This document shows, piece by piece, positions 4,597 through 22,236 of a stretch of DNA of 43,585 bases (position 1 is the first letter of the stretch; the number at the start of each line of letters is the position of its first letter). The notes beneath the pieces were generated by a model. It was not told the origin of the DNA, made no database searches, and was given only the letters and a program-made list of their open reading frames with translations. Source of the stretch: Bdellovibrio sp. (GTDB lineage: Bacteria > Bdellovibrionota > Bdellovibrionia > Bdellovibrionales > Bdellovibrionaceae). The stretch covers positions 1-43,585 of the forward strand of contig JABWCO010000012.1 in the NCBI GenBank assembly GCA_013360185.1, written 5' to 3'. Made by a program: the position numbers and the translations under genes.

Positions 4597-7500
4597 TATG
4601 GCACCTTCATCGAGTTACAGTTGAGTCCACACGCAGGACTTAAATCTCCTGTAGTTGGTAGAACACTATTCAATAGTATATTGACTCCTCTTTCCAACCA
4701 AAATGAAATCTTAGGTCCATACTCTTTCGCCCCAACAGCTATTGCGGGAGTCGCAAATCCGACTATACCTCCAGCAACAACACCTGTAAGCGCTCCAGCC
4801 CAACCACCAGTCGCTCCGCCGTGAAGTCCTAATACGGCAGCATTGCCAACTGCGAGAGCCGTTCCTAATCCAAATCTTGGTAAAGCCGCCGCAATTCCAT
4901 ACCCAAGCCCCCCACCAGCGACACTCAATAGAAACCCTTGAGTCCAATTCGTCAGAAACACGCTTCCAAAATTAGCCCAGAAATTCCCACCCATGAGAGA
5001 AGCCTGAAGAGAACTAAACAATATTGCGGGAATTAGAGAAGTAATCGCCGCCTCAAATAAAAATCCGATAATAGGAGCTAAAAAGGCAAATTTCCCGTCC
5101 GGGTCCACGTAGTTCACACCATTGTTATTTGCGTAAACGTACTTGTTGATCACACTAAGGGCACTTGAAAGTTTACCCGGATGCGGATCTTGCTGAATAA
5201 ATCTACCCGTCGCTGCATCATAGTACCGAGCCCGATAGTAATATAACCCAGATTCTTCATCAAACTCTCTGCCCGTATAAGCAAAATGCGTTCGTAGCGG
5301 CGGAGCTGAAGAAAGATCGGCGCTATTATCTGGACTTACTAATCCCAGTACCTCTCCAAATGCAGAGTAATGAATACGCTGAACAATATTCCCCGCACTA
5401 TCTGAGACTGCCTTCACTGAGCCTACATGGTCTTTGATAAATTCATAAGTTCCAGAATTCTGAGCGAGCCCAGCGGAAACTCCAGCGCTACTTATATCAA
5501 CACTCAATACATCATCTGTAGTCAGAGCAGAGTGAGTGTATCGCGCAAGTAAATTTCCAGATGCGTCTAGTTCGACAGACATCTCCTCACCATCATAACC
5601 GTAGTTACGCGTGTAATTTTTAATTATGTTACCAGGGCTATTGCTGTCATAAACCTGCTTCCGAATACGTCGGCCCGCCGGATCATAATGATAGCTCGCT
5701 CCCTTGTATGAGTTCGCAGAAAGTGCATTGGCGTAATAAGCCACGGACACAAGTTGATTTTCTGAATTGTGTTCAAACTTAACAACCTGTCCCGAGGACT
5801 TATTAACTTTTTGCATAATATTGCCAGAGTAATCATAAAAATACTGATTTCTGCCATCATCGGTTAAAAGCTGTCCCGTGGAGTCATAGACATAAGCACC
5901 CAGCAAATCAGTTATTCGATTTCCTAAGTTATCGTAAGAATAAGATTCTTGCGCAGGAAGACTTAGTGGTGTCGATCCATTGAGGGATGCAAAGGTTCGA
6001 TTTACACTCGAAACATAGCCAGCTTCATCATATCCGTAACTTTCCGTGGCAGATACCCCCTGACTTCCAGTTACAAAGCCAAGTTGATTATGGCTAAGAG
6101 TTATTGCTTCGACCGATTGGCTGTTTGATGTTTTATTATATATCAAAGATTGCAAATTTCCGGTCGCATAAGAAATCAATTTATTTATTCCCACGCCATG
6201 AACTTGCTTAAGCCTATTCACCCCATCATATCCAAAGTAAAAATTCTCACCTTTCGTATTCTGAAGTTGTCCCAATCTCATCGCTGAATCATAGCCATAT
6301 AAAACTTGACCACCCAGCGAATCTGTCATGCTCGTGCGTTGATCAAAAGAGTTATATGTGTAAGCAGTCGCATAAGAGCTAAACCCAGAGGCTCCATTGA
6401 AGGCTTGAGTCTGAAGACGAGAACCGACATCATAAGTATTTGAAATCGTACCCGTGCTGTTCGAGACTGTTGCCAAATTTCCCCTAATATCATAAGTGAA
6501 GCTATAAGTTTGCTCCGGCGTGACCTTAGAAATCATTTGGTTCAAGTCATCGTAACCAAAGGTGATCGTCTGATTTCTCTCATTAGTCTGACTGATTAAA
6601 TTTCCATTTTGGTCATAAGCCATCGTCACACTATAATTGAGCGGATTCGTTTTCGATGTCAGCCGTCCCAAAGAGTCGTAGACAAAAGACGTTACTTTCC
6701 CCTTAGGATCTGTAACCTCAGTCAATTCACCAGCAAGAGAATACGTGTAAAGAGTTTTCTCTGCTCTCGGGTTCGTTACCGATGTCAGCCTATTGAACAA
6801 GTCGTACTCGTAGGCTTCATTGACGAGCTGCGCTCCATTCACAAGAGTTTTTAAACTCATATTGCCATAGGCATCGTAAGAGAATCTTGTCTCTTTATCA
6901 TCCGTATTGACCTTAACTAAGCGACCTTTATTGTCGTAATCGCGAGTCTCAGTCGTTGAGTCACCATTGGCGCCGACTTTCTGGATCTGAATAGGTAATT
7001 CAAATCCATTGTATGCCACGGTGGTCGATGCCCCTGCGATGTCCGTCGTGCTTAGCAATAACCCCGTCGAACTCGAATAATTTCTGTGGACTGTTTTACC
7101 GTTTGTAGTTTCCGCGATCACATTCCCTAGGGTATCGTACCCCAAGATTTTCTCTTTGCCCGTTGCGGAATCATAACTCCGCACAAGATCACCCGTGCTC
7201 GAGTTATACTCAAACTCTGCATTCGAAGTATCTGGCCTAATGACGGAAACTGGTTTTCCATTTTCATTATAAGCAAACGTTGTCTTTCCACCGCTTGCAT
7301 CAGTTATCACCTGAACAAATCCGTTAAGGTCTTTGTCGATTTTGATCTCAATTCCTTTAGGGTCTATGATCCCATCATAAACTCCTCTCGTCGCTCCCAC
7401 GCGACTTTGCAATTGCCCAGGATTTTCATTAGTTCCAGATGCCAAAGATTTAGAAACTGAGTCTGCTATCTGAATTTGCGAGTTATCTGGCTTAATAACT

Positions 7501-10500
7501 TTTACCAGTCGATTGGCAACGTTATAGAAGTACTGTATCGCACCGTTCTTTTTATTGCCCTCTACCGACATGAGTCCTTTGGCATTGTACTCGTACTCTT
7601 GCCGTGAGCCATCAGGATACTCAACTTCAGAAAGCTCACCTTTCGAATTATAAGAGAATAACGTCAGTCTCCCACCGGGATCACGAATGCTGGAAAGAAG
7701 GTCGCCGGAATATTGGTATAAAACGCTATCACCATTCGGATAGGTAACTTGCGTTAAACGATTATTAGTATCGTAGCTATAATTTACAGATAGCCCAGCT
7801 AAATCAACGCTCTGAGTTTGATAGCCCTTATCATTAAAATGAACTTTAAAGCCATTTCTAAATGTTCTGACCCACGATCCATCTTCATTTTTCACAATAC
7901 TTGAAAGATCTTTATTTCCAGGAACAAATGCCAAACCATTTGCCGAATCGGCAAACGTAATTTTGCGAATCTTATTGTTTCCCGAATCTGAAACGACCAG
8001 CGCACCATCATTCGTTACAAATAATTGCGTCGGACTAAAGAGCTGAGTACTTAGAGGAGGAGTACTATCTCCATTGTCACCAGGTGCTCCAGTACCAGCC
8101 ACAACGACGGCGGCTCTATTGGCAAAGTCAATTCTTACAACTCGATGATGCCCAGTATCTGCGACGTATAAATAGCCCTTGGCATTATCTACCGCTAAAC
8201 CTGATGGCATTGAAAAGAAAGCTTTCTCCGCGGCTACAGAGTTAGCTAATACTCCCCCTTCACTTTGTGAAAGTCCGGCGAAGACAGTCATCTGTCCACT
8301 CCCATCAACTTTCATAATGTGTCCCGCCTCTGTCGCAATAAAGAGATTTCCTGCGGCATCTAATGCGACTGCACGAGGATGAAATAGACCTCCCTCAGTT
8401 GCATTGACAGTACTTCCTACTGGAATATCTGAAGTTCCACCACCACCAGCAAGAGTGCTGATGACGTTATTATCGAAGTCCACCAAACGAACTTGGTTAT
8501 TTCCCGTATCGGCAACAATAAATGTATTTGCTCGAGGACCATAGATAACAGCCGTCGGCTTATTTAATGGACTAGAGTTAACTTGCGAATAAGGGTCCCA
8601 GCCCGCAACGGGAACCACCCCAGAGCCTTGCACCAAGTTTCCACAGGAATTGTTTCCGGTATTTTCACTCGATGTACTGTCTTGAGTTCTATAGCTGCAA
8701 TTCATTCCTGTTCTGTTGTTACATTCCGTCATAACGAAATTCTGGAGATTGAAATCTGGAATCGGATTTGCCAAGTGGGATGCAACTCCCAGACCTTGAG
8801 GATTGATTGAGCCCGCAGTACCCAGCCTACCGGCAAACAACGAAGTTGTTCCGTTTGAAACTCGGATCAATGCATGACGAGTTTGATCTGAGTACACAAC
8901 ATCACCATTGGACAATGGTAAGAATGTCACGGGCTGACTGCCGTAAGTATAGTCAAATTTTTTGACCTCGCAATGAGACTTCGGAGTATATTGAATGACA
9001 GGCTCGTAGTGATCTCGAACGCAGATATTTCCGCCCGGCCACTCCCAACGTTCATCACAAACATAAATATAATCAACGATGTCAGATTGAGTCCAATTGT
9101 AGTTATAGTTACCCGCTACAATGCCTTTCATCTCAGACGCAGTTCCAAATTCTTGTGCTGAAACTGAACTTCCGCTTAAATTCGCTTGATAGAACTTCAT
9201 GCCATCAGATTTTGCGAACTGTACATTTGGATAACCGACTAAGCCGACTCCTTTTTTCAAGTCGCCGCCAAGGGTTCCGATATTGGCAATCGTTTTAATA
9301 GTATCTTTTTGGTAATAACTAGAGACATTTCCATTCGATTCTTCAATCATCAAATGATTGTCGTTTGGATTTACAATTCGCTGTACTCCCGCAATCTTCC
9401 ACCCACGACCTACGGACGATTGAACCTCATTCTGAACAAATAAAGGACCGCCCACGTCTTGATCAAAAGCGTTTTCGATAGTTCTGCGCTCATTGATATT
9501 TACCGGGTCAGCTTTAATCATAGGCTGCTCTGTTTGCGCCGAAACATTTTGATCAGCACCCAAGACACGATACTCTACGGTTCTCGTACCCGTAATCTGC
9601 TCTTTAAAACTTGCTTCGTAATGGACATTGAATGGATAAATACCTGTTGGTAAAAAGCCAGTATCATCCGTTCCTGGCTTTTTCATTTCTACTGCAAAAC
9701 TTACAACAGCCTGATTTGGAACTCCGACCATTTTAAATTTCTCAGTTTGAATATCATTTGAATGAAATTGTGCCGTTATATAATCAGGCTGGATAAGAGA
9801 GCGCACCGTAGTCACCGAAGTGAAGTCGATGGCCGTCAGTGCCTCTACATACGGCTGCTTAATAAGGTCGTTATCCGTTTGAATGGGGCTCTTATCCAAA
9901 CATGCAGGAATAATAAATATTCCCGAACAAAAACGAGTACGAATCTTATATTTTACAACATCAGTTCCCGTTTCAGTATATGTTTGCGCCTCCAGCTCTT
10001 GCAGAGGAAAGTCGAAAAGGTTTGTCACCGCCGCCGTTGGTCGCGCCCAACTAGAGTTATAAATTAAAGACGGTGTAATTGTTTTATTCAAAACTGTAAA
10101 TGATGGTGCATCTATTGATGTCTTAACGCCACCGTCAGCAATATTTGCTCCAGGTTTATCCTGATCCCCGATTTTTTTAACCACGGGAGATAATACTGTT
10201 GCGTATGCAAGAGAGAAATGGCGAATCCCTTGACCAGATTTAGTACGAACCGACTGTCCACCGTTTTCAACAGTACCAACGCCCCCGACTTCCCAGTCGC
10301 CCGTTTTCGAATTATAAAGCATAATCGCAACATCAGTCCCCTGAGGGTACTCACCTACATTCGGCATCGTAACATCTACAGGTTCAGAAAACGTAGTTCC
10401 CGAGGGTTCCAGTGCAATCACTTTCGTTGGCCGCGCAAAAGCGGGAGGCGGAATTGTTGTACGGCTCACCGGGATTTCTACAATCGAAATTTTCCCATCG

Positions 10501-13500
10501 CTACTGCCCGCTGGAAATTGCACGGACTGCGCAGGAATCTCAAGTGTAGTACCGGGTGCATGGGTATCTGTAACCGTTCCGCCTGCCTGGTAATCGACGT
10601 GACCGCCCGTATTATCAAGATACGTTGGGGCTAGATAGATCGGTCTTTGAATAATACTATCATTGCTAACACTCACTGTGACATTAACCAAAGATTGAGA
10701 GAATCTTTTGGTTGCTTCCTCACCCTCTGCCAAAGTTACCGTACTACCATCAACGACAAGGGTACGATCACCGCGAAGTGAGTTGATATTTGTTGTTGAT
10801 CTTCGGAAAACAAACACTCCTCCACTATCGGTCGTTGTCTGCACATCTGTTCCGACAATTTTTACTGTCGCATTAGCCAGCGGCTGCCCGCTTGTATCGA
10901 ATACCGAGCCCGATAAAATGATGTCACTATTGCTTCCTAAGAAAATCTCATGAATTTCAACTTTTCCAGTCAATGGATCTTGCGCTTTTAGACTCGCACT
11001 GGAAAAGGCATCCACTAAAAATTCGAAAGCTCCTTCAAAGTTGGCATTCTTAGTCTCGGAGCTAAAGAATCCCGTACTCAAAGTCACCGAGTATCCTGGT
11101 TTACTTGCTCCAGCGGCACCTTTTACTAAATACTTTGTTCCATCCTGAACCGGGACTATTGTAACCAACTCTGGATACAATGTACGAATAAGGACGCTAA
11201 AACTTACGGTGAGTGAGGTTTCATTTCCAACTTCATCTATTCCTACAACATAGAATTGCTGAAGCCCTTCGGACGCAAAAGTATATGGCATATTGAATGA
11301 TTTTCGATCTGCCGAGAAGTTTGGCACCGATTCACCATTGATAAATACTTCGCTTAGGCGCTTGTCTGATGTTCCTGATATAACTTGATAAGCCGCATCC
11401 AACTGCTGACCTTCCAAGGGATTCGTCATAGTCAAGACTGGTGGCTGCGTATCCATACGGATTGGTCCCGTTTGATAACTAGATTCATTGCCCCAGTCAT
11501 CCACAGCAATAATTTTAATATAATTATCAATTTCAGGATCAAGTGGAACATCCCATGAAATGAAACGCTCAAATGTAGTAAAGACCAAGTTGTCGTTTAC
11601 ATAAACTGATACCGTCGGCAAATGAATATCTTGCGCAGAAATATCAAGACGTATTGAGGGAGTATTCACGTAAGGTTTATAACCCGTCACTGTCAAAACA
11701 GGTGCTTGGAAGTCTGTTTCGATCACGATGTTATTTTCTAGCGTTGATTTATTACCCGCTAAATCAGTAGCAACAAGTTTAATTGTCTTTGTCCCATCGG
11801 TAAGAAACAACAACTGCCCCGCAAAGCTTGTACCCCCTTCATCCAAAGGAAGAGATAAACCATTTGCTGAAATATCCGACAGGGGCTCATCAGAAAATCC
11901 TGAAATCATCACCAACCGCTGATTACTTCTGATTGTTTCGTCAGATGCGGGTAATACGCTATTAAGAACTGGAGGAGTAACATCTACCGTAATTGTATCT
12001 GTAACAATCGAAGAAGAGTTTCCAGAAGCATCTACAGAACTAACAAATACGGTATTTGTCCCTTCAGGCAGGTGAAGGTCTTGAATAATTTTTTTACTCT
12101 TAGACTCAACAGCTGTCATTCCATTTACCTGAACGGTCGTCGTGGTGCTTGCAATATCACGAATATCCAACGACAGGTGGAAATTAGGGTTATTCGTTAA
12201 AGTCGGCTGAGTCGGAAAACCCGTTGCTAAAATTTGTGGCGGCTCTGTATCTGCTACAGGCGCAACTCGATCAACAATAACTTGTAAGTAGGTTGCAGAA
12301 CCGCCCCAAATTTGAACGGAAAGCTTATTTATTTCTTTTAGCTTTACAACACCCTCAAATAAATACTGAAACTTACTTACGTCACCGCTTGCAGTAACCC
12401 TTAGGTCATTCACATAAACGTAAGCATTATTGACTCTATATTGATTCACATACTGTGAGTTCATCCAATTGTTGAACTGGCAAAGTAGATCAAAAATTGA
12501 ATTACAAGGATCATTCGTGGGACGAGGCTCTCCATCTGCATTGAGGATGCGAATTCTATATAATTCATCAAGCTTATCGCTTGGAGCATTAAAGTTCACG
12601 GTATGCATGACCGGGCTCTGAGTATCGGAGCCGTTAAAAGATGTCGGGCCGTAAATCGTCTCTTGTGAATCGAAATAAGGACTTGGACTGACTACAATGG
12701 ATCTTTCAACTTCAGACTTTCCACCACGGTCATCGGTAGCCTTCACCGTCACGATATATGTTCCGGGGGCTGAGTAAACATGATCCGCCGTCCAGGCGCT
12801 CGTCGTTTTTGTTCCATCACCCCAGATAAATTCAAAGCTCGATATGACACCATCTGGATCATATGAACCACTGGTATCTACATAAATATATTCTGGAGTC
12901 CCTCGTATAATATTTGTTTTAATGACCGGAGTTTGATTGGTAGGAAGATTTTGTGCAGGCGGCAAAACTTCAACCGGGATAGATATTTGATCCTCCTGTC
13001 CGGCTGAGTTTTTTACCTTCAGTGTAATTTGATATGTACCCGGACTATTGTAGGTATAGTTAGCACTCAATCCTGAGGCAGTTCCGGTTCCATCTCCAAA
13101 ATCCCAAGTATATGTTAAGGAACGTCCTAAGGGATCAAAGGAATAGCCCGCCTTGACTTGTTGTTGCATCGGAGCTGAACCAACAAGTTTTTTGACTGAA
13201 AAGAAGGCCTTAGGCTTCAAATTAGCAACCACAGTAGACTCAAGAGAGTAGCGCAATTGACTTGTGGGAAATCCTAACTTCGTAAATTCGAAGGTATTGA
13301 TGTCTCTATTGAAATTCAAAGCCACTTCTTTATAAGAACGCAAGTGACCAATCGTTGCACTGGCAATGACAGCCCCATTCAATTTAAAACTATAGTTTTC
13401 AAACTGGGTATAATCTGTCTGAAGTTTCTCAACGGCATTATTTGAAAGGCATTGTCGAACAAGTCCAGCAGGAGTTAACCCCAAACAACTTGGCGCGAGG

Positions 13501-13697
13501 TAAGGCCCCGTAGTTCCATTGTAGACCTTGTAAAGATAATAGCCTTGAGGCATTCCCGTTATATCGACATTTCTGGTAAAAGTATAACTTGCTGTATCTG
13601 GCGTTGTCACAAGCTCCGGCCCGTAGATAACATCAGCGCGAGACGCCACCGAACATAAAGATAATATCAACGTGAAAATAAAATTTGTTCGCAACAT
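4596..13697 (-). CDS. Giant secreted PKD/NHL/Rhs (YD-repeat) protein, candidate toxin carrier
   Basis: The protein has 3033 residues and starts with a Sec signal peptide (MLRTNFIFTLILSLCSVASRA). In order it shows two PKD domains (about 160-340, with WDFGDG and IWGDG), an unassigned part, then about four Ig-like repeats each opening near DxxPPxL (480-850). Next are a carboxypeptidase-regulatory-like fold (about 930-990), a ZU5-like region (1040-1165) and NHL repeats (about 1690-1905, with VADTGNNQVR and VADTGHHRVV). A long YD-repeat shell follows (about 1950-2780), then the Rhs core signature GLYYYRARYYDAATGRFIQQ and VDPDG at about 2866. The last about 165 residues are hydrophobic and glycine-rich, unlike nuclease tips. 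Known Rhs/TcC shells enclose and cleave off such variable tips. There is no PAAR domain, so export is through Sec, not obviously type VI. AAGGA precedes the ATG. The next gene overlaps the stop. Confidence 0.93.
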   Translation of the reverse strand: MLRTNFIFTLILSLCSVASRADVIYGPELVTTPDTASYTFTRNVDITGMPQGYYLYKVYNGTTGPYLAPSCLGLTPAGLVRQCLSNNAVEKLQTDYTQFENYSFKLNGAVIASATIGHLRSYKEVALNFNRDINTFEFTKLGFPTSQLRYSLESTVVANLKPKAFFSVKKLVGSAPMQQQVKAGYSFDPLGRSLTYTWDFGDGTGTASGLSANYTYNSPGTYQITLKVKNSAGQEDQISIPVEVLPPAQNLPTNQTPVIKTNIIRGTPEYIYVDTSGSYDPDGVISSFEFIWGDGTKTTSAWTADHVYSAPGTYIVTVKATDDRGGKSEVERSIVVSPSPYFDSQETIYGPTSFNGSDTQSPVMHTVNFNAPSDKLDELYRIRILNADGEPRPTNDPCNSIFDLLCQFNNWMNSQYVNQYRVNNAYVYVNDLRVTASGDVSKFQYLFEGVVKLKEINKLSVQIWGGSATYLQVIVDRVAPVADTEPPQILATGFPTQPTLTNNPNFHLSLDIRDIASTTTTVQVNGMTAVESKSKKIIQDLHLPEGTNTVFVSSVDASGNSSSIVTDTITVDVTPPVLNSVLPASDETIRSNQRLVMISGFSDEPLSDISANGLSLPLDEGGTSFAGQLLFLTDGTKTIKLVATDLAGNKSTLENNIVIETDFQAPVLTVTGYKPYVNTPSIRLDISAQDIHLPTVSVYVNDNLVFTTFERFISWDVPLDPEIDNYIKIIAVDDWGNESSYQTGPIRMDTQPPVLTMTNPLEGQQLDAAYQVISGTSDKRLSEVFINGESVPNFSADRKSFNMPYTFASEGLQQFYVVGIDEVGNETSLTVSFSVLIRTLYPELVTIVPVQDGTKYLVKGAAGASKPGYSVTLSTGFFSSETKNANFEGAFEFLVDAFSSASLKAQDPLTGKVEIHEIFLGSNSDIILSGSVFDTSGQPLANATVKIVGTDVQTTTDSGGVFVFRRSTTNINSLRGDRTLVVDGSTVTLAEGEEATKRFSQSLVNVTVSVSNDSIIQRPIYLAPTYLDNTGGHVDYQAGGTVTDTHAPGTTLEIPAQSVQFPAGSSDGKISIVEIPVSRTTIPPPAFARPTKVIALEPSGTTFSEPVDVTMPNVGEYPQGTDVAIMLYNSKTGDWEVGGVGTVENGGQSVRTKSGQGIRHFSLAYATVLSPVVKKIGDQDKPGANIADGGVKTSIDAPSFTVLNKTITPSLIYNSSWARPTAAVTNLFDFPLQELEAQTYTETGTDVVKYKIRTRFCSGIFIIPACLDKSPIQTDNDLIKQPYVEALTAIDFTSVTTVRSLIQPDYITAQFHSNDIQTEKFKMVGVPNQAVVSFAVEMKKPGTDDTGFLPTGIYPFNVHYEASFKEQITGTRTVEYRVLGADQNVSAQTEQPMIKADPVNINERRTIENAFDQDVGGPLFVQNEVQSSVGRGWKIAGVQRIVNPNDNHLMIEESNGNVSSYYQKDTIKTIANIGTLGGDLKKGVGLVGYPNVQFAKSDGMKFYQANLSGSSVSAQEFGTASEMKGIVAGNYNYNWTQSDIVDYIYVCDERWEWPGGNICVRDHYEPVIQYTPKSHCEVKKFDYTYGSQPVTFLPLSNGDVVYSDQTRHALIRVSNGTTSLFAGRLGTAGSINPQGLGVASHLANPIPDFNLQNFVMTECNNRTGMNCSYRTQDSTSSENTGNNSCGNLVQGSGVVPVAGWDPYSQVNSSPLNKPTAVIYGPRANTFIVADTGNNQVRLVDFDNNVISTLAGGGGTSDIPVGSTVNATEGGLFHPRAVALDAAGNLFIATEAGHIMKVDGSGQMTVFAGLSQSEGGVLANSVAAEKAFFSMPSGLAVDNAKGYLYVADTGHHRVVRIDFANRAAVVVAGTGAPGDNGDSTPPLSTQLFSPTQLFVTNDGALVVSDSGNNKIRKITFADSANGLAFVPGNKDLSSIVKNEDGSWVRTFRNGFKVHFNDKGYQTQSVDLAGLSVNYSYDTNNRLTQVTYPNGDSVLYQYSGDLLSSIRDPGGRLTLFSYNSKGELSEVEYPDGSRQEYEYNAKGLMSVEGNKKNGAIQYFYNVANRLVKVIKPDNSQIQIADSVSKSLASGTNENPGQLQSRVGATRGVYDGIIDPKGIEIKIDKDLNGFVQVITDASGGKTTFAYNENGKPVSVIRPDTSNAEFEYNSSTGDLVRSYDSATGKEKILGYDTLGNVIAETTNGKTVHRNYSSSTGLLLSTTDIAGASTTVAYNGFELPIQIQKVGANGDSTTETRDYDNKGRLVKVNTDDKETRFSYDAYGNMSLKTLVNGAQLVNEAYEYDLFNRLTSVTNPRAEKTLYTYSLAGELTEVTDPKGKVTSFVYDSLGRLTSKTNPLNYSVTMAYDQNGNLISQTNERNQTITFGYDDLNQMISKVTPEQTYSFTYDIRGNLATVSNSTGTISNTYDVGSRLQTQAFNGASGFSSYATAYTYNSFDQRTSMTDSLGGQVLYGYDSAMRLGQLQNTKGENFYFGYDGVNRLKQVHGVGINKLISYATGNLQSLIYNKTSNSQSVEAITLSHNQLGFVTGSQGVSATESYGYDEAGYVSSVNRTFASLNGSTPLSLPAQESYSYDNLGNRITDLLGAYVYDSTGQLLTDDGRNQYFYDYSGNIMQKVNKSSGQVVKFEHNSENQLVSVAYYANALSANSYKGASYHYDPAGRRIRKQVYDSNSPGNIIKNYTRNYGYDGEEMSVELDASGNLLARYTHSALTTDDVLSVDISSAGVSAGLAQNSGTYEFIKDHVGSVKAVSDSAGNIVQRIHYSAFGEVLGLVSPDNSADLSSAPPLRTHFAYTGREFDEESGLYYYRARYYDAATGRFIQQDPHPGKLSSALSVINKYVYANNNGVNYVDPDGKFAFLAPIIGFLFEAAITSLIPAILFSSLQASLMGGNFWANFGSVFLTNWTQGFLLSVAGGGLGYGIAAALPRFGLGTALAVGNAAVLGLHGGATGGWAGALTGVVAGGIVGFATPAIAVGAKEYGPKISFWLERGVNILLNSVLPTTGDLSPACGLNCNSMKVP

Positions 13698-13923: not shown

Positions 13924-14397
13924 ATGAAAACGAAAACTATGCTCTCACTTATCGTCGCTGCGATTCTCGCAGGTGCTTATCAAGCAAATGCCGCTCAAGG
14001 TACAGGACGCGCAACTATTAAAGTTGTTACTGCGATTGCTGTAACTAACGTGTCTGATCTCGTGTTCTCAGAAGCTGCCGCAGGTGCTGCTGCTGAAACT
14101 GTCGATCCTGACCAAACAGAAACTGCGCAAAATGCAAGTTTCGATATAGCTGGAGAGCCAAATCGCGCTATCGCGATCACTCTACCTAGCGATAATACAG
14201 TTTTTATGGTTACTGGTGGCGGCGGAACTCCTGACCAGGAAATCGCTGTAGATCAATTTTTAAGCAATAACCCTGCTCAAATTGATCCTTCTGGCACATC
14301 TCAACTTTTCGTTGGTGCAACTCGCGCTGCTTTGAGTGCAACTCAAGCATCTGGTGACTACGAGGGCAATTTCGCTGTTGACGTAGTATATCAATAG
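13924..14397 (+). CDS. DUF4402 pilin-like subunit (major pilin candidate)
   Basis: The 157-residue product has a Sec signal peptide (MKTKTMLSLIVAAILAGAYQ, cleavage near ANA-AQ) and a DUF4402-type beta-sandwich domain. Conserved features shared with the second copy at 15269-15751 are VSDLxF near the N terminus, NASFxIxGEPxR, a glycine-rich turn, VGATR and the C-terminal GDYxGxFxVxVVY strand. The ribosome site AAGGAGGAAAG is the strongest in the cluster. This fits a highly made structural subunit. It is followed by a PapD-like chaperone and later an usher, so it is probably exported to the surface as a pilus subunit. It is the first gene of the plus-strand cluster, divergent from the Rhs gene. 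Confidence 0.88.
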   Translation: MKTKTMLSLIVAAILAGAYQANAAQGTGRATIKVVTAIAVTNVSDLVFSEAAAGAAAETVDPDQTETAQNASFDIAGEPNRAIAITLPSDNTVFMVTGGGGTPDQEIAVDQFLSNNPAQIDPSGTSQLFVGATRAALSATQASGDYEGNFAVDVVYQ

Positions 14398-14419
14398 TTG
14401 AAAAGCTGAACTCATCTAG

Positions 14420-14452
14420 CTTAACGTCTTTTCATTAAGGAAAGGCGTTAAG
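14420..14452 (+). promoter_or_regulatory. Intercistronic stem-loop between pilin and chaperone
   Basis: CTTAACG pairs with CGTTAAG, then a T.G wobble, then CTTT with AAAG, leaving a 9-base loop. The AAGGAAAG ribosome site for the chaperone is in the loop and 3' arm. With the GTG start downstream this should lower chaperone synthesis relative to pilin, and could protect the 3' end of pilin mRNA after processing. Confidence 0.65.
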
Positions 14453-14457
14453 TACCC

Positions 14458-15285
14458 GTGAAAACCCTCATCTACTTTTTTATTTTCTTTCCCTCGATTG
14501 TTTTGGCCCAAGCTCAAGTTTTCCCCACTCGCCTTACCCTAACCGAAGAAGCACCATCATCATATTTGAATCTTAAGAATACGACGGCATCACCTCAAAA
14601 GTATCGTATTGAACTGGCGCAATACCTCATGAAGAAAGACGGCACTGTCGCTAAAGCCAATGTCGAAAATAATCCACTGACTGAGGTTCTGAAATTCTCT
14701 CCAAAGGTCGTTGAACTTGCCCCAAATGAAAAGCAAGTGGTAAGAGTTATGGCAACCGCATTTGATGATCTTACGGATGGGGACTATTATGTCTACCTTC
14801 ACTTTATTCCAGAATCTGGATCAGCTAGCTCATCTCCCACCAAAGCCAAGTTCTCCCTTCAGGCTCGCATCGCTGTAGCAGTACCCGTCGTTGTTCGCCA
14901 CGGCACTGCTAAAGTAGACGGAAAACTAACCGAGCTAAAAGCCGCTAATGTCAAAAATGGCGACCTCGAAGTGACATTTAAAATTGCCAACTCTACAAAA
15001 TACTTTTTAACAGGAAATTTGGACATTATTGGAGTTACAGATAAAGGCGAAACCGTATTATCTCAAACTATCGGCATCACTTCTTACATCCCCTCCCGTA
15101 CCGTAAAAACCTCGGTCACAACAAAAGATGTCGCTGAAAAGCTCAATGGAGAATCATTAAAGAAAGTAAAAGTTAAATTTGCCTCAAATGAAAATAGCGG
15201 CACTACTTTCGAGCTTCTGGGGGAAGCTACTATTGACAGTAGCTCATCAGCAAAGAAAACGAAAAAGGTTAGTAAACAACGGTAA
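14458..15285 (+). CDS. PapD-like periplasmic pilus chaperone
   Basis: The 275-residue product has a signal peptide (about residues 1-18, FFIFFPSIVLAQA) and the two-domain Ig fold of pilus chaperones. Domain 1 has QVFPTRLTLTEE, then SYLNLKNTTASPQKYRIELA and the LAPNEKQVVRVM strand; domain 2 begins near VAVPVVVRHG. This layout resembles the chaperones of the alternative (Ecp/CFA-like) pathways more than classical PapD. It has a lysine-rich tail (SSAKKTKKVSKQR). The start is GTG. The last 17 bases overlap the convergent second pilin gene. Its role is to bind DUF4402 subunits in the periplasm and pass them to the usher. Confidence 0.85.
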   Translation: MKTLIYFFIFFPSIVLAQAQVFPTRLTLTEEAPSSYLNLKNTTASPQKYRIELAQYLMKKDGTVAKANVENNPLTEVLKFSPKVVELAPNEKQVVRVMATAFDDLTDGDYYVYLHFIPESGSASSSPTKAKFSLQARIAVAVPVVVRHGTAKVDGKLTELKAANVKNGDLEVTFKIANSTKYFLTGNLDIIGVTDKGETVLSQTIGITSYIPSRTVKTSVTTKDVAEKLNGESLKKVKVKFASNENSGTTFELLGEATIDSSSSAKKTKKVSKQR

Positions 15286-15751
15286 CAAAAAATTGCCCAG
15301 TATAGTCTCCAACTTTTTGGCTCGACGAGATTGCTTGCCTGGTCGCTCCTACGAAAACCATTTTTTTACCTGTTTGATTTAACATCCCGACACCTGAAGG
15401 ATTTGAACTAAACTCCTGGATCAAAATCTCTCGATTTGCGCCACCAATTCCATTCACCATTCTCACCGAATTCCTTGCAGGCAAAATGATCTGAAAATTG
15501 CGTAAGGGTTCTCCCTCAATTTCAAAACTTGCATTCTCTCGTGTTTCGATACTATCAGGAAGAACGGTCTTCGGACCATCACCAGGAGAGGCTTCGCCAA
15601 AATCTAGATCTGAGACCTTTTTAATTTTTAGTCGGTGAACAATTTTCTGATTTGCATTTGCAGCAGTCGAATCACCAATGCTTGGATTTGCGAAAGTAGT
15701 ACCAGAAAAGACAAATATTAAAGATAAAACATAAACTTGTTGTAATTTCAT
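15269..15751 (-). CDS. Second DUF4402 pilin-like subunit, inverted inside the cluster
   Basis: The 160-residue product has a signal peptide (YVLSLIFVFSGTTFA) and a DUF4402 domain clearly related to the first pilin: VSDLDFGEASPGDG, ENASFEIEGEPLR, VFVGATRQAI and the C-terminal GDYTGQFFVTVVY. It reads against the other cluster genes, overlaps the 3' end of the chaperone gene by 17 bases, and starts only 28 bases from the usher start. It may be a minor or tip subunit, or an alternative pilin. Any transcript running from pilin 1 and chaperone into the usher would be antisense to it. No clear ribosome site precedes the ATG. Confidence 0.87.
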   Translation of the reverse strand: MKLQQVYVLSLIFVFSGTTFANPSIGDSTAANANQKIVHRLKIKKVSDLDFGEASPGDGPKTVLPDSIETRENASFEIEGEPLRNFQIILPARNSVRMVNGIGGANREILIQEFSSNPSGVGMLNQTGKKMVFVGATRQAISSSQKVGDYTGQFFVTVVY

Positions 15752-15765
15752 AAGATCGAATCTTA
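15751..15765. promoter_or_regulatory. Perfect palindrome between divergent pilin-2 and usher starts
   Basis: TAAGAT and ATCTTA flank a 3-base centre in the 28-base gap, reaching into the first base of the pilin-2 start codon. It could be an operator or an RNA hairpin controlling pilin 2. Function is unproven. Confidence 0.35.
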
Positions 15766-15779
15766 ATAATACTAACCTT

Positions 15780-18239
15780 ATGAAATCAATACTAATCAGC
15801 TACCTATTATTGCTATTTACGCTGAGCGCCTTAGGTGCTGAGTTAGAGGAGCAGGTACTGGAAGTGAGCACCATAGGTGGGGTCATTTTATCTGACCCCA
15901 TTATCGCTCTATCTAAAGGCACAGAAGTATTCTTACCCTTATTAGATACCGCTAAAATTTTGGGCATTCAAGTAGAGCAGCCGGACAAGGGCATCTTCAA
16001 AATTTATAGAACGCCCACAGACCTAGATACAATAGATCTTTCCAACTGCCCCAATTCAAGCCTAAAAGCCTGTAAATCATTAGTAAAACAAAAAGAAAAC
16101 TTCTATCTGAATATTGAATTTTTAAAAGATTCTCTTCAATGGCCTCTGTCTATTAATTTAAAATCCATGGTCCTTTCGGTCAATGTGGACCCAAAATCTA
16201 AAAATATTGTCAGGCAATCAAATGAGCCACGCCCCTATAAAATCATTAGAAAACAATTTGATTACCCCGCCCTCCGGTTGGAGGCCACGGCCTCTTCGGA
16301 AAAAAACAATAATCTTCTGAATGTGTATGAAAGTCAGCCGCTCCTAAATCATGACTCAGATATGGTTGTCTCCACCTCGCCTCAGCAAACGTATTTTCGC
16401 TGGACGATTTCAAAAGAAGTCATTGAATCAACCGCTCCCTATGAAATAAAAAACTATGAGTTAGGCTCCACCCAAACGGTCGATACCAAATACCTCTTCT
16501 CTCCGACTCTAATATCGGGCGTTCATTTTTCGAATATCAAATCTGGAGAAAATATATTCGACACTCAAAATCTTTATGAAAAAGGACCGCCACGATGGAA
16601 GGTTGAAATTTATGTCAACGACATCTATCTCGGAGAAACCTCTATTGATATAAATGGAAATTTCTCTTTTACAAACGTTCCTATTTTCTACGGGCTCAAT
16701 AAAATTCGCTATAGAATGACCAGTCCGATTGGAAACATTGTCGAGATTGACCGAACCCTCAATGTATCCAGTGATTTTCAAGGGGCCGGACGTTTGAAAT
16801 ACCAAGCGTCCTTTGGACAAGCCGTCGGAAACGCCAACTATGTTGGCAGCGGAGCCCTTAGCTATGGGCTCACTTCCAATATGAGTGCGCAGCTCGGACT
16901 TTCCCAATTTGCCTTACCTAACGCCTCCGATATTAAAAGATATTCCACAATGGGATTGAGCTACCTTCAGCCTAGCTTTTCCTTGGGATTACAAAAACTA
17001 ACCTCTTTTGATAATCAAGAAAATGCTTGGATATATACACCTAAGGCCAATGTAGGAAGAGTCCTGATCACTGGGGAATATGCAAATTTCGAAAACCTTA
17101 AAACTGCTCTTATCAACCCGCATAATGGAGACAGTCTAAATTCACTGAAAAAGATTTCTCTTCTGGCACCCATTCAGTTTCAATATCCCGTTACCGCACA
17201 ACTTGCATTTCAGGAGTCTACATTCACCGATATAGCATCAAATCAACAACTTCAAGCCCGTATTTACTCCATGCTACCGTCTTCATCTCTTTTACTTGAA
17301 TCCAATAAATTTTGGCCTTCTGATGCCAAGCCTGACCTTTATGTTGAATACGGAAATTACAACCGATCTTTTCGCGGCAAATACGGAGTTCTTATCCAGA
17401 ATGATAAATATGCGAAAACAAAAATGGAGCTAGAATATCTACTTGAGAATAATCTTTATCTGACGCTTTCTGCGAATCTTCCTCCTGCATTAAAAAATGG
17501 ATCTTACGCAGCCGGAGCAAATAAAATCATCCACGATATTCAATGTGAACTCAATATTTCTTACTCCGAAATTCAAACACTCTACAGCCTGACGCTTTCG
17601 ACAAATATCAAAACAAAACAAGAAGATGGATTCCAACTGAGTCACGAAGAATCCTATCGACAAGCAAATATTGAGGTCTTTGCATTTATTGATGAAAACT
17701 CAAACGGGAAATTTGATATAGGAGAAAAACCTTATCCAAAATTGAGAGTTCTAGAGACCAATAGACAAAAAGACTACATCACCAATGAAAGCGGGATTGC
17801 GACAATTCCATCCCTTAGCCCTTACCAGCGAGTTTCCTTAGAAATTGTAAAAGAGTCGATCACAAATATCTTCTTAACAGCTCAAGACTTCCAAAGTGAT
17901 TTCATACTAACTCCCGCACAACAATTACGGATAGAGCTTCCAATTAAACCATCATTCGATGTTAGAGGGATCATAGTAAATCCATACTTCAAGAAACTCG
18001 TACCTCTTGAAATTCTAGACTCCAATAATAATATTATTGGAACAACGCTCTCTTCATCTTCTGGAAAATACAAATTTACTGATCTTCCCGGAGGTACATA
18101 CTTTATTAGAATCTCTCAAGACTTTTTGGTAAAGAATCACTTACGCTCAAATCCAGAGCTTATAGCTGTTGATCTTCTCGGAAAGGCTGGAGCCAGATCT
18201 GCCGAACAAATATATATAGAAGTTATCAATAAGAACTAG
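15780..18239 (+). CDS. Outer-membrane pilus usher
   Basis: The 819-residue product has a signal peptide (MKSILISYLLLLFTLSALGA). It is organised like the ushers of the alternative (EcpC/CFA-like) chaperone pathways. First comes a plug-proximal N-terminal domain, then a beta-barrel region with alternating strands (about 200-640) that includes the WKVEIYVNDIYLGETSID and NVPIFYGLNKIRYRM segments seen in usher middle domains. A C-terminal region carries two small carboxypeptidase-regulatory-like folds (VFAFIDENSNGKFDIGEKP and GKYKFTDLPGGTYFI). It would secrete and assemble the DUF4402 subunits. No ribosome site is obvious before the ATG, which suggests low expression. No tip adhesin gene follows. 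Confidence 0.85.
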   Translation: MKSILISYLLLLFTLSALGAELEEQVLEVSTIGGVILSDPIIALSKGTEVFLPLLDTAKILGIQVEQPDKGIFKIYRTPTDLDTIDLSNCPNSSLKACKSLVKQKENFYLNIEFLKDSLQWPLSINLKSMVLSVNVDPKSKNIVRQSNEPRPYKIIRKQFDYPALRLEATASSEKNNNLLNVYESQPLLNHDSDMVVSTSPQQTYFRWTISKEVIESTAPYEIKNYELGSTQTVDTKYLFSPTLISGVHFSNIKSGENIFDTQNLYEKGPPRWKVEIYVNDIYLGETSIDINGNFSFTNVPIFYGLNKIRYRMTSPIGNIVEIDRTLNVSSDFQGAGRLKYQASFGQAVGNANYVGSGALSYGLTSNMSAQLGLSQFALPNASDIKRYSTMGLSYLQPSFSLGLQKLTSFDNQENAWIYTPKANVGRVLITGEYANFENLKTALINPHNGDSLNSLKKISLLAPIQFQYPVTAQLAFQESTFTDIASNQQLQARIYSMLPSSSLLLESNKFWPSDAKPDLYVEYGNYNRSFRGKYGVLIQNDKYAKTKMELEYLLENNLYLTLSANLPPALKNGSYAAGANKIIHDIQCELNISYSEIQTLYSLTLSTNIKTKQEDGFQLSHEESYRQANIEVFAFIDENSNGKFDIGEKPYPKLRVLETNRQKDYITNESGIATIPSLSPYQRVSLEIVKESITNIFLTAQDFQSDFILTPAQQLRIELPIKPSFDVRGIIVNPYFKKLVPLEILDSNNNIIGTTLSSSSGKYKFTDLPGGTYFIRISQDFLVKNHLRSNPELIAVDLLGKAGARSAEQIYIEVINKN

Positions 18240-18456: not shown

Positions 18457-18821
18457 GGCTTTTGAATCAGATCTTGCCCATCTCACAGGAAAGATTAAAG
18501 GATTCGCCAAAGGCGAAGCTCAGTCGGTCTTCTACCGACAGAACGCTTTTGCGTTCGTTTTCTGACTTGCACGTCAAAATTTTGGGACCAGTCGCTCTGG
18601 TCCCCTCCAAAGCCATTTCTAGCAAAGCCACGCCAGCCCCTTCGGGACTGTCATGCCCTTGCTTTCCCTAACGGCGAAATGGCTTCTCCGGCTCTCGCCG
18701 CTCCTTCATCTACATTTTCACGCCCCGACATTTCATGACGGGGGATGAAAACGTAGATGCCCCAAAATTTTGACAAGCAAGTTCCTGGGGTGGGGCCGTT
18801 GGCCTAAAAAATGTTTTTTAG
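18457..18821. other. Non-coding array of consecutive hairpins framed by an inverted repeat
   Basis: I see no convincing gene here. Perfect hairpins follow each other: 18503-18517 (TTCGCC), 18523-18539 (GTCGGT), 18541-18556 (GAACGC), 18584-18604 (GGGACCAG), 18689-18700 (CGGC) and 18794-18804 (GGCC). A wider pair, AGCCATTTC at 18611 with GAAATGGCT at 18676, encloses smaller stems. The segment 18707-18759 is one long hairpin of 18 pairs in 21. A 22-base inverted repeat with 19 matches (18566-18587 and 18760-18781, core GTCAAAATTTTGGG) brackets the central part. The palindrome 18804-18821 closes the array just before the J-domain gene. It may be a structured RNA, or a region active as single-stranded DNA on a mobile element. 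Confidence 0.75.
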
Positions 18822-18858
18822 AACAGAAATTTTAACGAATCACAAAGGAGTGAAAAAA

Positions 18859-19365
18859 ATGAATATATACGACGCTTTAAAAGTTCTTGGTGTTATCGAG
18901 TCACCTGTCACTGAAGAGGCTGCCAAAACAGCCTACCGTCAAGCTTGCCTTAAATTTCATCCTGACCGCAATCCCGCAGGCAATGAGATGATGAAACTTA
19001 TTAACGAGGCAAAGGAAGCTCTTAAAGGTGCAACTTATCCTATCGAATATAAAAATGATGATGCCTACAACTATGGCGAAGAAATCAACGAGGCTTTAAA
19101 TAAGATTATTAACCTGCAAGGGCTCGTGATCGAGGTCTGCGGTTCTTGGGTGTGGGTCTCTGGAAGTACAAAAGATCACTGGACACTTTTAAAAGAGGCA
19201 GGCTTTAAATTCTCGCCACCTAAAAAAATGGTTTATTTCCGCCCACACTACGCAAAAACTCGTCGTTTTAAAAAAGATGGTCTTTCTATGGACGAAATTC
19301 GCGGGAAGTACGGCGCAAGTAACATCAAAACAAAAAATCTTTATTACCTCACGGCTCGCGCTTAG
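18859..19365 (+). CDS. J-domain protein with C-terminal mobile-element-type domain
   Basis: I choose the ATG at 18859, which has AAGGAG 8 bases ahead; an upstream frame to 18811 lacks one. The 168-residue product has a J domain at about residues 3-55 with the diagnostic HPD at 34-36 (LKFHPDRNP). This domain would stimulate the ATPase of a DnaK-type Hsp70. The C-terminal half has the pattern VCGSWVWVSGSTKDHW, then FKFSPPKKMVYFRP. From memory, similar domains occur in J-domain and antirestriction-linked proteins of plasmids and genomic islands. It lacks the zinc-finger and client-binding domains of true DnaJ. It follows the hairpin array and ends in its own terminator. Confidence 0.85.
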   Translation: MNIYDALKVLGVIESPVTEEAAKTAYRQACLKFHPDRNPAGNEMMKLINEAKEALKGATYPIEYKNDDAYNYGEEINEALNKIINLQGLVIEVCGSWVWVSGSTKDHWTLLKEAGFKFSPPKKMVYFRPHYAKTRRFKKDGLSMDEIRGKYGASNIKTKNLYYLTARA

Positions 19366-19397: not shown

Positions 19398-19937
19398 ATG
19401 AAAACAGAACAACTCAACGAATTTGTCAAAAAAATAGAGCCTTTCTTTCTCGGATATACTGCCGAAGAAAATCGCCTGAAGAACTCTAATGGCATGGAGC
19501 TAATTTTTCGCATAGACTGGAAAAACAAAACCACTGTGAGCGGTCTTAATGCTAAACATCGCCACTCAATCGGCTGCTCTTTCGACAAACCACTCGAAAA
19601 AATTTTTAAAGATATTCGTCGTCGCCTAATTCCTGCCTATCATGCAGATTTTTTTGAAAATAAACGCGAAAAAATGGAACAAGCTGAAGCAGAACATAGC
19701 AATTCTCAAAAACTTAAGGCTCTGGCGTCTGTGATCGAGGGACAAATTGAGCGACATTATGGTCATCGCGGCTCTGCAAATATTGAATATGTCCATTCGG
19801 AATCTGCATCCATTTATCAGACCTATCAGGGAAACTACGAGTTTAATATCGTTCTTGAGTATATCGACGCCATGAGGCTTGCTAAGATACTAAAAGATCT
19901 TGAATTTCTCAAAAAAATTCCAACGACAGAAAACTAA
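19398..19937 (+). CDS. Hypothetical protein, 179 residues
   Basis: ATG at 19398 follows a TTAGGAG site. The product is soluble and charged, with no signal or membrane segment. It has a mixed N-terminal part (FRIDWKNKTTVSGLNAKHRH), a basic helix (KIFKDIRRRLIPAYH), a lysine/glutamate-rich helical linker (FENKREKMEQAEAEHSN), and a C-terminal beta-rich part (NIEYVHSESASIYQTYQGNY). Separate transcription from the J-domain gene is likely because of the terminator between them. I do not recognise the family. Position suggests an accessory-element gene, perhaps of the kind found with antirestriction or mobilisation functions, but nothing in the sequence proves that. Confidence 0.7.
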   Translation: MKTEQLNEFVKKIEPFFLGYTAEENRLKNSNGMELIFRIDWKNKTTVSGLNAKHRHSIGCSFDKPLEKIFKDIRRRLIPAYHADFFENKREKMEQAEAEHSNSQKLKALASVIEGQIERHYGHRGSANIEYVHSESASIYQTYQGNYEFNIVLEYIDAMRLAKILKDLEFLKKIPTTEN

Positions 19938-20178: not shown

Positions 20179-20925
20179 ATGAGTATCGGGGGATTTTCAG
20201 CGTTTCCAAGTTTTCTTGAGAGTAGCTTAACAAATTTTTGCTTTGTAGATACCAGCATCTTGTTTTCAGCGACTTATCCTCTGGATAAATTTAATGCTGA
20301 ATCTGAGACCGTATTTGAAAGTCTTGCAAAAAATAATAGATCTATTCTAACAAATCAAAATGTTCGATCTGAATTTCTAGAAAATCATCGCAGAGTCTTA
20401 CTTGCAGAGGCACTCATTGATTTTTATGAGGACCGTTTCGACCTAATACCACAGCCTTGCGCAGAAAAGCTCAAATCCCATCGTACCAACTTCAGACGCA
20501 AAGTCGAAGAAGGAAAAGACTCCAAACTTAACTCAAACCAGATCAAAGAGTTTAGAGAAATTCTTTCGAAATTTGAAATCAAAAATCAGTCAGCGTGGTA
20601 CTTTCTTTGTGAAAAATACCTAGAGCCTCTACTCTCTCCTCTATGGGACTCTGTTGTCTCGGAATTGAGAGTTGATTTTCTATCCTCTAGAGCTTCAGAA
20701 ACAACACCCCTTCTTGATAAAAAGCTAAACTGGTCAGACGCCATTAGTTTAATGGGGCGATATGGAATAGCATCTTCTGATGCTATGATTTTGAATATGT
20801 TTTTATCTTCAAAAATTCCCATTTTAATTACAGCGGACAAAGAAATGGCTCAGTGTATTCGAGCTCAAAACCGCAATGACAAATATGTTTTTATTCCTGA
20901 TTCAATTCTAAAAGAAATTTCATAA
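20179..20925 (+). CDS. PIN-domain nuclease, toxin candidate
   Basis: The 248-residue product has the acidic residues of a PIN ribonuclease: Asp24 in FCFVDTSILFS, Glu65 in NVRSEFLENH, Asp201 in GIASSDAMI and Asp220 in ILITADKEMA. Metal-dependent RNA cleavage is the family function. It is longer than VapC-type toxins (about 130 residues) because a helical insert of roughly 100 residues lies between the second and third acidic motifs. It starts 2 bases after the 56-residue basic protein, giving a two-gene toxin-antitoxin-like unit, and is followed by a terminator. Alternatively it could be a housekeeping-type PIN endonuclease of the element. All catalytic positions seem intact. Confidence 0.85.
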   Translation: MSIGGFSAFPSFLESSLTNFCFVDTSILFSATYPLDKFNAESETVFESLAKNNRSILTNQNVRSEFLENHRRVLLAEALIDFYEDRFDLIPQPCAEKLKSHRTNFRRKVEEGKDSKLNSNQIKEFREILSKFEIKNQSAWYFLCEKYLEPLLSPLWDSVVSELRVDFLSSRASETTPLLDKKLNWSDAISLMGRYGIASSDAMILNMFLSSKIPILITADKEMAQCIRAQNRNDKYVFIPDSILKEIS

Positions 20926-21036: not shown

Positions 21037-21417
21037 TTATGCCGCAGAAATCACATGACCATGCTCTTTTAGAAATTCAAAATATGCCGGGGTCATAGTA
21101 ATTCCGATAAATTCTTCCATAGTTACCTGTCCATGAATCTCAGAATATTTTTTACGCAATATGTCCTGACGATCTGAGTTTTTCAGGGAGCGTCTTAGAA
21201 GATCTTTGATGTGACTTTCTGTGACCAACTCCAATCCTAATCGAATAATCTGGTCTATTTTAACTTTACGTTTCTTTTGCTTTTTGTTGTCTATTTCCAG
21301 ACCTCTATTTGCAAGCTCCAAAAGAGGAGCTGCTTTCTTTATAGTTTCAGAACTGAGGCGAACTGATTTAGGTGAGTTCTTAGTTGCTGATGTTTTTTTG
21401 ATTCTTTTATTTTCCAT
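21037..21417 (-). CDS. Basic possible ribbon-helix-helix protein
   Basis: The frame can be opened by a TTG at 21429, but the ATG at 21417 has GGAG seven bases ahead, so I use it (126 residues). The N terminus is strongly basic (NKRIKKTSATKNSPK), then SVRLSSETIKKAAPLLELAN resembles a strand-helix of an RHH fold. A second basic helix (KKQKKRKVKIDQIIRLGLEL) and an acidic C-terminal part follow. Such layouts occur in mobilisation accessory proteins and RHH repressors. It is downstream of, and on the same strand as, the XRE regulator and is probably co-transcribed. The fold call is by eye and uncertain. Confidence 0.65.
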   Translation of the reverse strand: MENKRIKKTSATKNSPKSVRLSSETIKKAAPLLELANRGLEIDNKKQKKRKVKIDQIIRLGLELVTESHIKDLLRRSLKNSDRQDILRKKYSEIHGQVTMEEFIGITMTPAYFEFLKEHGHVISAA

Positions 21418-21479
21418 TTGATTCTCCAAAATTGAATTACTTGATACTTTCGGTTTATATTTTGTTGCATTTCATGCAA

Positions 21480-21839
21480 TCAAACTGCGACATCCTGAAT
21501 GACAGGGCTGCGCAAAAACTGAGTTAAAATTGAACGAAGTGCTGCAAGCTGCTCATTATCTAAACGATCAAGCATCGCACGACAGTCATCCTTCAAGTTG
21601 CCTATAGGCTCTCTTCCAATAATCTTATTAAAATCATCCATCTTGAGACCATAAGCTTTCACAAGTTGTTCGATTCTGTATTCGGGAAGGTCTAATTTTC
21701 CATTCTCAAATTGACTAATAGTGACGTGGGACACGCCGATCATAGCGCCGACCTCTCTCATTGTTAAATCGGCGGACTCTCTCATACGGCGTAAAAGGAT
21801 ATAAACTTTTTCTTCTTTCTTTTTGTAACCAACTTTCAT
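21480..21839 (-). CDS. XRE-family HTH regulator
   Basis: The 119-residue product has a clear Cro/C1-type helix-turn-helix at about residues 14-70: RMRESADLTMREVGAMIGVS, then HVTISQFENGKLDLPEYRIE. The C-terminal helical part (about 80-112) would be for dimerisation. GAGGAA precedes the ATG. Upstream lies a nested inverted repeat that could be its own operator. Together with the basic protein downstream it forms a small regulatory pair at the tRNA-proximal end of the accessory segment. Likely role is repression of this segment and autoregulation; targets cannot be read from sequence. Confidence 0.9.
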   Translation of the reverse strand: MKVGYKKKEEKVYILLRRMRESADLTMREVGAMIGVSHVTISQFENGKLDLPEYRIEQLVKAYGLKMDDFNKIIGREPIGNLKDDCRAMLDRLDNEQLAALRSILTQFLRSPVIQDVAV

Positions 21840-21975: not shown

Positions 21976-21997
21976 CTTAGCCCAAACTTAGCCCAAA
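21976..21997. repeat. 11-bp direct repeat, two tandem copies
   Basis: CTTAGCCCAAA occurs twice in tandem in the 320-bp gap between the XRE regulator and tRNA-Asp. The rest of this gap (21840-22159) holds no convincing gene. Short direct repeats beside a tRNA can be arm-type sites of a tyrosine recombinase, but no core duplication was found. Confidence 0.5.
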
Positions 21998-22159
21998 AAC
22001 AGCCAAACTCGGGTGATTTTATGAAATGTCGTGTGACGTTAGATTTACGATGGGATAAAGCAGAATGCTCAAACTCCCTTATATTTTACTTGAGATAACT
22101 AATACTTAGAAAAACACTGTCACTTCTGGCCTTTGCCATTTTCTCAAGGAAGAGAAAAA

Positions 22160-22236
22160 TGGCGGGGTGGACGGGACTCGAACCCGCGGCCTTCCGCGTG
22201 ACAGGCGGACGTTATAACCAACTTAACTACCACCCC
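22160..22236 (-). tRNA. tRNA-Asp (GTC)
   Basis: Read on the minus strand, GGGGTGG at the 5' end pairs with CCACCCC, followed by discriminator G and an encoded CCA. The anticodon arm is TCCGC, loop CTGTCAC, GCGGA, giving anticodon GTC. The T arm has GGTTCGAACCC. It forms the right boundary of the accessory segment; elements often enter at tRNA 3' ends, and the 3' end faces that segment. Confidence 0.97.

Follow-up and report, generated by a model that had tools for sequence, protein, structure and literature searches.

To our knowledge, promoters that work on single-stranded DNA are known experimentally from just a few enterobacterial plasmids, and such promoters are usually found by BLAST or by searching hairpins for −35/−10 sequences. 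The Frpo sequences (Frpo1 and Frpo2 of the F plasmid, together with Frpo-like sequences of ColIb-P9 and other plasmids) consist of structured noncoding DNA placed before leading-region genes such as ssb and antirestriction genes, and their function on single-stranded DNA has been described (PMC9849209; PMC11541004). The template strand of Frpo is the structured, transferred strand, and its −35/−10 sequences lie in a stem. Sequences before establishment genes of conjugative elements are also known in pLS20-type plasmids (EGeRS), for which a role as single-stranded DNA promoters was argued against on the grounds of their length, a missing promoter and the strand transferred (PMC8708921). In addition, the STAXI and radC RNA motifs of Rfam are structured and occur near ssb, antirestriction and integrase genes; STAXI, described as repeated pseudoknots, has been considered for a role as single-stranded DNA (PMC2864571).

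Here, we describe a folded element of Bdellovibrionota that shares several of these traits. As with Frpo, it forms stable stem-loops as a single strand, stands directly before establishment genes, and has a template strand that is the structured one by computation; this strand may also be the transferred one. This predicted transferred strand fits a single-stranded DNA promoter, unlike the situation reported for EGeRS. In contrast to Frpo, the element occurs in what appear to be tRNA-inserted conjugative elements and carries an invariant CATGACAG/CTGGCGTG helix rather than −35/−10 sequences that can be recognized. The two share no sequence similarity, the best score of our model in the F leading region being 9.8 bits (E 3).

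A folded element upstream of a J-domain gene

The window, that is the whole stretch of 43,585 nt analysed here, had been the subject of an earlier note, which claimed exceptional secondary structure at 18503-18821, upstream of a J-domain gene. For this region as DNA, we computed −76.7 kcal/mol (z −8.6) on the plus strand and −88.0 kcal/mol (z −11.3) on the minus strand, and for the plus strand as RNA −128.8 kcal/mol (z −6.9); no shuffled sequence was as stable in any of the three cases. The structure is thus far beyond that of shuffles, which confirms the observation of the note, but the better fold belongs to the minus strand, which the note had not written out. Both of the larger repeats that it had reported are present, namely an outer repeat at 18565-18586 and 18761-18782 (22 nt, 91% complementary) and a long hairpin with arms at 18707-18731 and 18735-18759 (25 nt each, 84%). 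The extent of the element needs refinement: the whole region is structured, but the three short perfect hairpins at 18503-18556, the last of which (18541-18556, followed by a T tail) is terminator-like, lie outside the strand-asymmetric part and probably outside the conserved element. The latter begins at about 18560, and the asymmetry is confined to it (−72.5 kcal/mol on the minus strand versus −62.0 on the plus strand for 18560-18860).

The block proper, 18560-18828, is best drawn on the minus strand, which is also the predicted travelling strand. A 21-pair outer stem, formed by the two arms of the outer repeat, surrounds four branches, one of them an arm bearing the core. Other parts of the block are a GGGACCAG/CTGGTCCC hairpin (18584-18604), a small CGGC/GCCG hairpin (18689-18700) and the long hairpin (18707-18759), which has 14 unbroken basal pairs on the minus strand. 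The core arm is closed by stem P1 (18610-18685, with 18610-18619 pairing to 18676-18685) and contains the P3 core helix (18621-18663), which reads CACGCCAG (18629-18636), loop, CTGTCATG (18648-18655) on the plus strand and CATGACAG/CTGGCGTG on the minus strand, where it includes an invariant T.G pair (18653/18631). A GGCC hairpin and CTAAAAAATGTTTTTTAG occupy 18794-18821; the same place is taken in relatives by a CCCCCGCC...GGCGGG hairpin together with AAAAATGTTTTT (module B).

The J-domain gene (PF00226, 168 aa) occupies 18859-19365 on the plus strand, with its ribosome-binding site AAAGGAG at 18844-18850, and does not start at 18811. Its orthologues are found in elements of Bdellovibrionota and in conjugative plasmids such as IncX3. 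It is followed in the same orientation by a gene of unknown function (19398-19937, 179 aa) and by a gene for a PIN-domain-like protein (20179-20925, score under the curated cut-off). On the minus strand, a small-protein gene (21037-21429) that is kept beside the element in at least seven related loci is paired with a gene for an HTH regulator (21480-21839), beyond which lies tRNA-Asp (22160-22236). Short direct repeats, TTAGCCCAAACTTAGCCC, are present between the HTH gene and the tRNA (21977-21994), and TAGCACAAA..TAGCA repeats occupy the corresponding interval in four other loci (L222, L225, L227 and L228); they are perhaps integrase or excisionase arm sites. To the left of the element, 4596-13697 encode a very large secreted protein of 3033 aa, which is YD-repeat/RHS-like and contains PKD-like repeats; a chaperone-usher and DUF4402 gene cluster (13924-18239) lies close by.

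A family with a conserved fold

When the region was compared by BLAST with 59 related genomes, the core alone was matched, in two genomes, and this led us to the motif; in neither genome is the gene that comes after it related to the J-domain gene. The same core is present in the gap upstream of J-domain gene orthologues from other Bdellovibrionota. A pattern search added further copies, while a reversed control pattern matched rarely. At a threshold of E ≤ 0.01, a covariance model of the core (R1) then matched 28 places, distributed over 21 of 368 genomes from the phylum, and it also matched two filamentous-phage contigs in IMG/VR (L063 and L249). Two weak model matches that look false on inspection were discarded, one coding and devoid of asymmetry (L213), the other lacking the core (L220). 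Plain pattern matches in IMG/VR were mostly chance matches in coding sequence, and a stricter pattern was used together with the model. A BLAST search of plasmids with an idealised 41-nt core gave mostly unrelated matches; one of them lies near the Frpo region of pED208, with just 10.1 bits by the model. Tandem GGCCCCTTCGGGGCTGTCATG units are located upstream of that Frpo region (L191, 3440-3560), and in F each of Frpo1 and Frpo2 is preceded, at a distance of about 280 bp, by CTGTCGTG (L196, 10115 and 15503); in both plasmids the model score is at chance level.

On the plus strand, the CACGCCAG-hairpin-CTGTCATG core (18629-18655) corresponds to a helix that covaries among 27 sequences, 25 of them distinct, drawn from Bdellovibrionota and the two phage contigs. 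The homologues do keep pairing, a check that the earlier note had proposed: in an alignment that was fitted to the covariance model and hence leans towards structure, 97.6% of cells pair, seven of the 12 pairs show double changes, 43 cells are double-changed versus 10.5 in shuffles, and the covariation score is 0.411, compared with 0.145 for shuffled and at most 0.206 for slid alignments. An unfitted alignment of nine members (A3), folded independently with RNAalifold, still contains double changes in 6 of 16 pairs. The element is therefore not a one-off but a family with a conserved fold. Rfam scans of the region and of its members at gathering and permissive thresholds matched no family, STAXI included, and the radC motif, which was searched for explicitly, remained below the cut-off. 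A limited search of the open-access literature did not reveal any description of the element, which is probably a new family within the known class of single-strand DNA promoter or initiation elements.

Strand preference and downstream genes

The minus-strand fold was the better one in all 26 members tested, by a mean of 10.5 kcal/mol. The corresponding difference was 0.6 ± 3.4 kcal/mol in random windows of the same loci and 4.5 kcal/mol in windows of similar GC skew; part of the bias is due to GC skew, and the preference exceeds this effect. In the core, the T.G pair of the minus strand, which is an A.C mismatch on the plus strand, is kept in 27/27 sequences, and standard pairs amount to 304/312 on the minus strand versus 271/312 on the plus strand. 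This structured strand is the template strand of the downstream gene. We computed the same direction of asymmetry for Frpo1 and Frpo2 of F and for the leading region of pED208, in all of which the template is likewise the strand that is transferred.

The gene that follows the element is co-oriented in the members examined and mostly of the establishment type. J-domain genes occupy this position in the window and in L174/L175, L179 and L211. Pfam identified ArdA in L177, L178, L206 and L208, ArdC in L171 and DUF6908 in L252, L253 and L255, the DUF6908 gene of L209 being recognized by eye. A RelE-like toxin gene is found in L168, and a conserved zinc-ribbon-like protein is encoded in six loci (L167, L173, L176, L217, L218 and L254). 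In the phage contigs, the next gene encodes KfrA (L063) or an HTH-like protein (L249). In L198, two elements about 700 bp apart are each followed by their own gene. Most of these genes are of kinds known from plasmid leading regions (PMC11541004).

Carrier elements and the predicted transferred strand

The element is located near the 3′ end of tRNA genes, tRNA-Asp in the window and tRNA-Gly, -Ala or -Ser in related loci, with the conserved HTH and small-protein gene pair in between. Within the genus, homology at tRNA-Asp ends exactly at the tRNA 3′ end (22153-22157), the edge of the inserted region; this tRNA gene is therefore an insertion hot spot. The left flank of the tRNA-Asp region (22153-22236) varies among the species compared within the genus. 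In two genomes (G024 and G046), the contig of the element also encodes an integrase, a PF03432 relaxase, a NikA/MobC-like protein and type IV secretion system proteins, including TraC_F in G024, at distances of 50 and 78 kb. The related loci appear to be conjugative elements that have integrated next to tRNA genes, and by homology the element of the window is probably conjugative too. The window's contig holds the tRNA end of the carrier alone, its oriT and integrase being absent from the contig. We searched for att repeats of tRNA-Asp in the window and of tRNA-Ser in G024 and G046 and found none convincing, so that we could only infer the extent of the carrier. A 5.7-kb contig of the same genome (L268; C61 of G000) carries MobC-like, relaxase, excisionase-like and integrase genes and may represent the opposite end of the element to which the window belongs; its match to the tRNA-Asp 3′ end is just 12 nt long and common to another contig.

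A candidate oriT was recognized 5′ of the mob operon in G024, G046, G066 and the second module of G082, in the form of an inverted repeat followed by CCCTATCTTG and then CC, an arrangement which we take to resemble the nic site of RP4. It is located at about 8000 in L269 (G024 C1, ~1522996) and at about 4728 in L270 (G046 C1, ~264727), and also occurs in L272 and L273. The inverted repeats differ in sequence with pairing kept. The bare 8-mer is expected by chance about 0.7 times per region, and the weight therefore rests on the common position, orientation and repeat. No such site was found in the related relaxase modules with integrases of G087, G084 and G082 C11, nor a convincing candidate in G056 and G308. 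These nic-like sites 5′ of the MobC-relaxase operon indicate that oriT is not in the folded element.

With the polarity of RP4, the transferred strand would pass through the relaxase and the integrase up to the att site; once the carrier is circular, it would continue from the tRNA end into the element, which in G024 would be reached about 8 kb past nic. At the element, transfer of the minus strand is predicted for G024 and of the plus strand for G046, and each of these is the structured strand of its locus; by homology, the transferred strand (T-strand) of the window is predicted to be the minus strand. The main weakness of this argument is that, with the RP4-based polarity, the relaxase genes would be leading, whereas relaxases are as a rule found on the lagging side (PMC11541004); if the rule applied to these elements, the opposite strand would be the one transferred.

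The two filamentous-phage contigs share the core but not the conjugation module. They encode Zot-like proteins and replication proteins of the filamentous-phage kind (by Pfam in L063, by eye in L249), and their phage genes are on the structured strand of the element. In filamentous phages, the strand bearing the phage genes is the packaged one. The strand would therefore be the same in two carriers that are unrelated and both move in single-stranded form. The complementary-strand origin of the M13 type likewise has hairpins on the packaged strand, where RNA polymerase makes a primer; in contrast to that origin, the element precedes, in both contigs, a gene oriented opposite to the phage genes, encoding KfrA in L063 and an HTH-like protein in L249.

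Discussion

The earlier note had offered three options: a large structured RNA, an origin or transfer region, and a promoter working on single-stranded DNA. The third is now the best supported, because of the asymmetry towards the template strand (26/26), the predicted T-strand in two elements, the phage-gene strand and the establishment genes downstream, whereas a 5′-leader RNA is disfavoured and oriT appears to lie elsewhere. We thus favour, with a probability of roughly 0.58, an Frpo-like single-strand DNA promoter or initiation site that would be active right after transfer. In the double-stranded donor chromosome, the element would be silent or weak. During conjugation, the T-strand (the minus strand in the window) would enter the recipient as single-stranded DNA and fold into the multi-branched structure with its CATGACAG/CTGGCGTG helix, a duplex-like structure that could recruit RNA polymerase or another host initiation factor. 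This factor would copy the adjacent T-strand, and the recipient would therefore produce the J-domain protein without delay, or, in the case of relatives, ArdA, ArdC, toxins or DUF6908 proteins. The same transcript may serve as a primer for the second strand, and conversion to double-stranded DNA would end the signal. A single-strand-specific promoter is the most likely function in this model, with a primer function being possible.

Alternatively, the element could be a single-strand initiation site only (ssi or sso), the folded travelling strand recruiting a primase, a primosome protein or RNA polymerase for complementary-strand priming, with its place before early genes being secondary. Its occurrence on the phage-gene strand of two filamentous-phage contigs and a core unlike a sigma-70 promoter would suit such a site. 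We nevertheless consider it rather unlikely, as the consistent position directly before co-oriented establishment genes, and the two elements of L198, about 700 bp apart and each before its own gene, favour gene control. A structured regulatory RNA, whether a 5′ leader on the mRNA of the next gene or an antisense transcript of the minus strand, would agree with the very stable RNA fold (−128.8 kcal/mol), the UUCG-type loops and the covariation. However, wobble (G.T) pairs of a leader should favour the plus strand, and those seen here favour the other strand, opposite in sense to the mRNA; a minus-strand RNA would have no constant target upstream, and no Rfam family reached its gathering score, radC being specifically absent. 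An RNA therefore seems quite improbable to us.

Inverted repeats can also be operators, and the nearby HTH gene might suggest a double-stranded operator with extruded cruciforms for an element-encoded regulator, or an origin from which the excised element replicates. A site bound as double-stranded DNA would not be expected to show covariation or strand asymmetry, and phage contigs with the same core lack the conjugation module; we regard this explanation as very unlikely. Even less credence can be given to a mobile hairpin repeat (MITE- or REP-like) without function in the element. Several copies do exist per genome in G082, G086, G046 and G112, but the copies vary in sequence with their pairs kept, each precedes a gene of the same orientation, and they are rare (21/368 genomes, with one to four matches each); the conserved position and the covariation speak against such a repeat.

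Returning to the single-strand promoter, a search of the gene strand for a sigma-70-like double-strand promoter gave 0/24 at 9/12 or better. No −35/−10 sequence was recognized on the folded strand either, a scan that is uninformative, since it also missed F Frpo (not above shuffles). It is tempting to go further and suggest an undescribed conserved single-stranded DNA signal, read through the CATGACAG/CTGGCGTG helix by a factor other than sigma-70 and common to phylum-wide conjugative elements and filamentous phages, which would keep establishment genes on only while the DNA is single-stranded; we put forward this extension tentatively and find it doubtful as it stands. The presence of a covariance-supported family without similarity to F in predatory bacteria and filamentous phages suggests a wider occurrence of gene expression from single-stranded DNA on entry, with more than one kind of signal behind it. 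The fold asymmetry between strands could serve as a sequence-independent test for such elements and for the anti-defence genes behind them.

Structured gaps with the same strand asymmetry and without the core precede other J-domain orthologues (L007, 5471-5710; L008, 5531-5770; L009, 5671-5910), one such coreless gap being in a Micavibrio MAG, and elements of this kind may thus not all be of a single sequence type. In IncX3 (L013, 4013-5402), a structured gap of 1.4 kb comes before the J-domain orthologue of the plasmid, which points towards nearby ddp1 and relaxase genes, presumably in the leading region.
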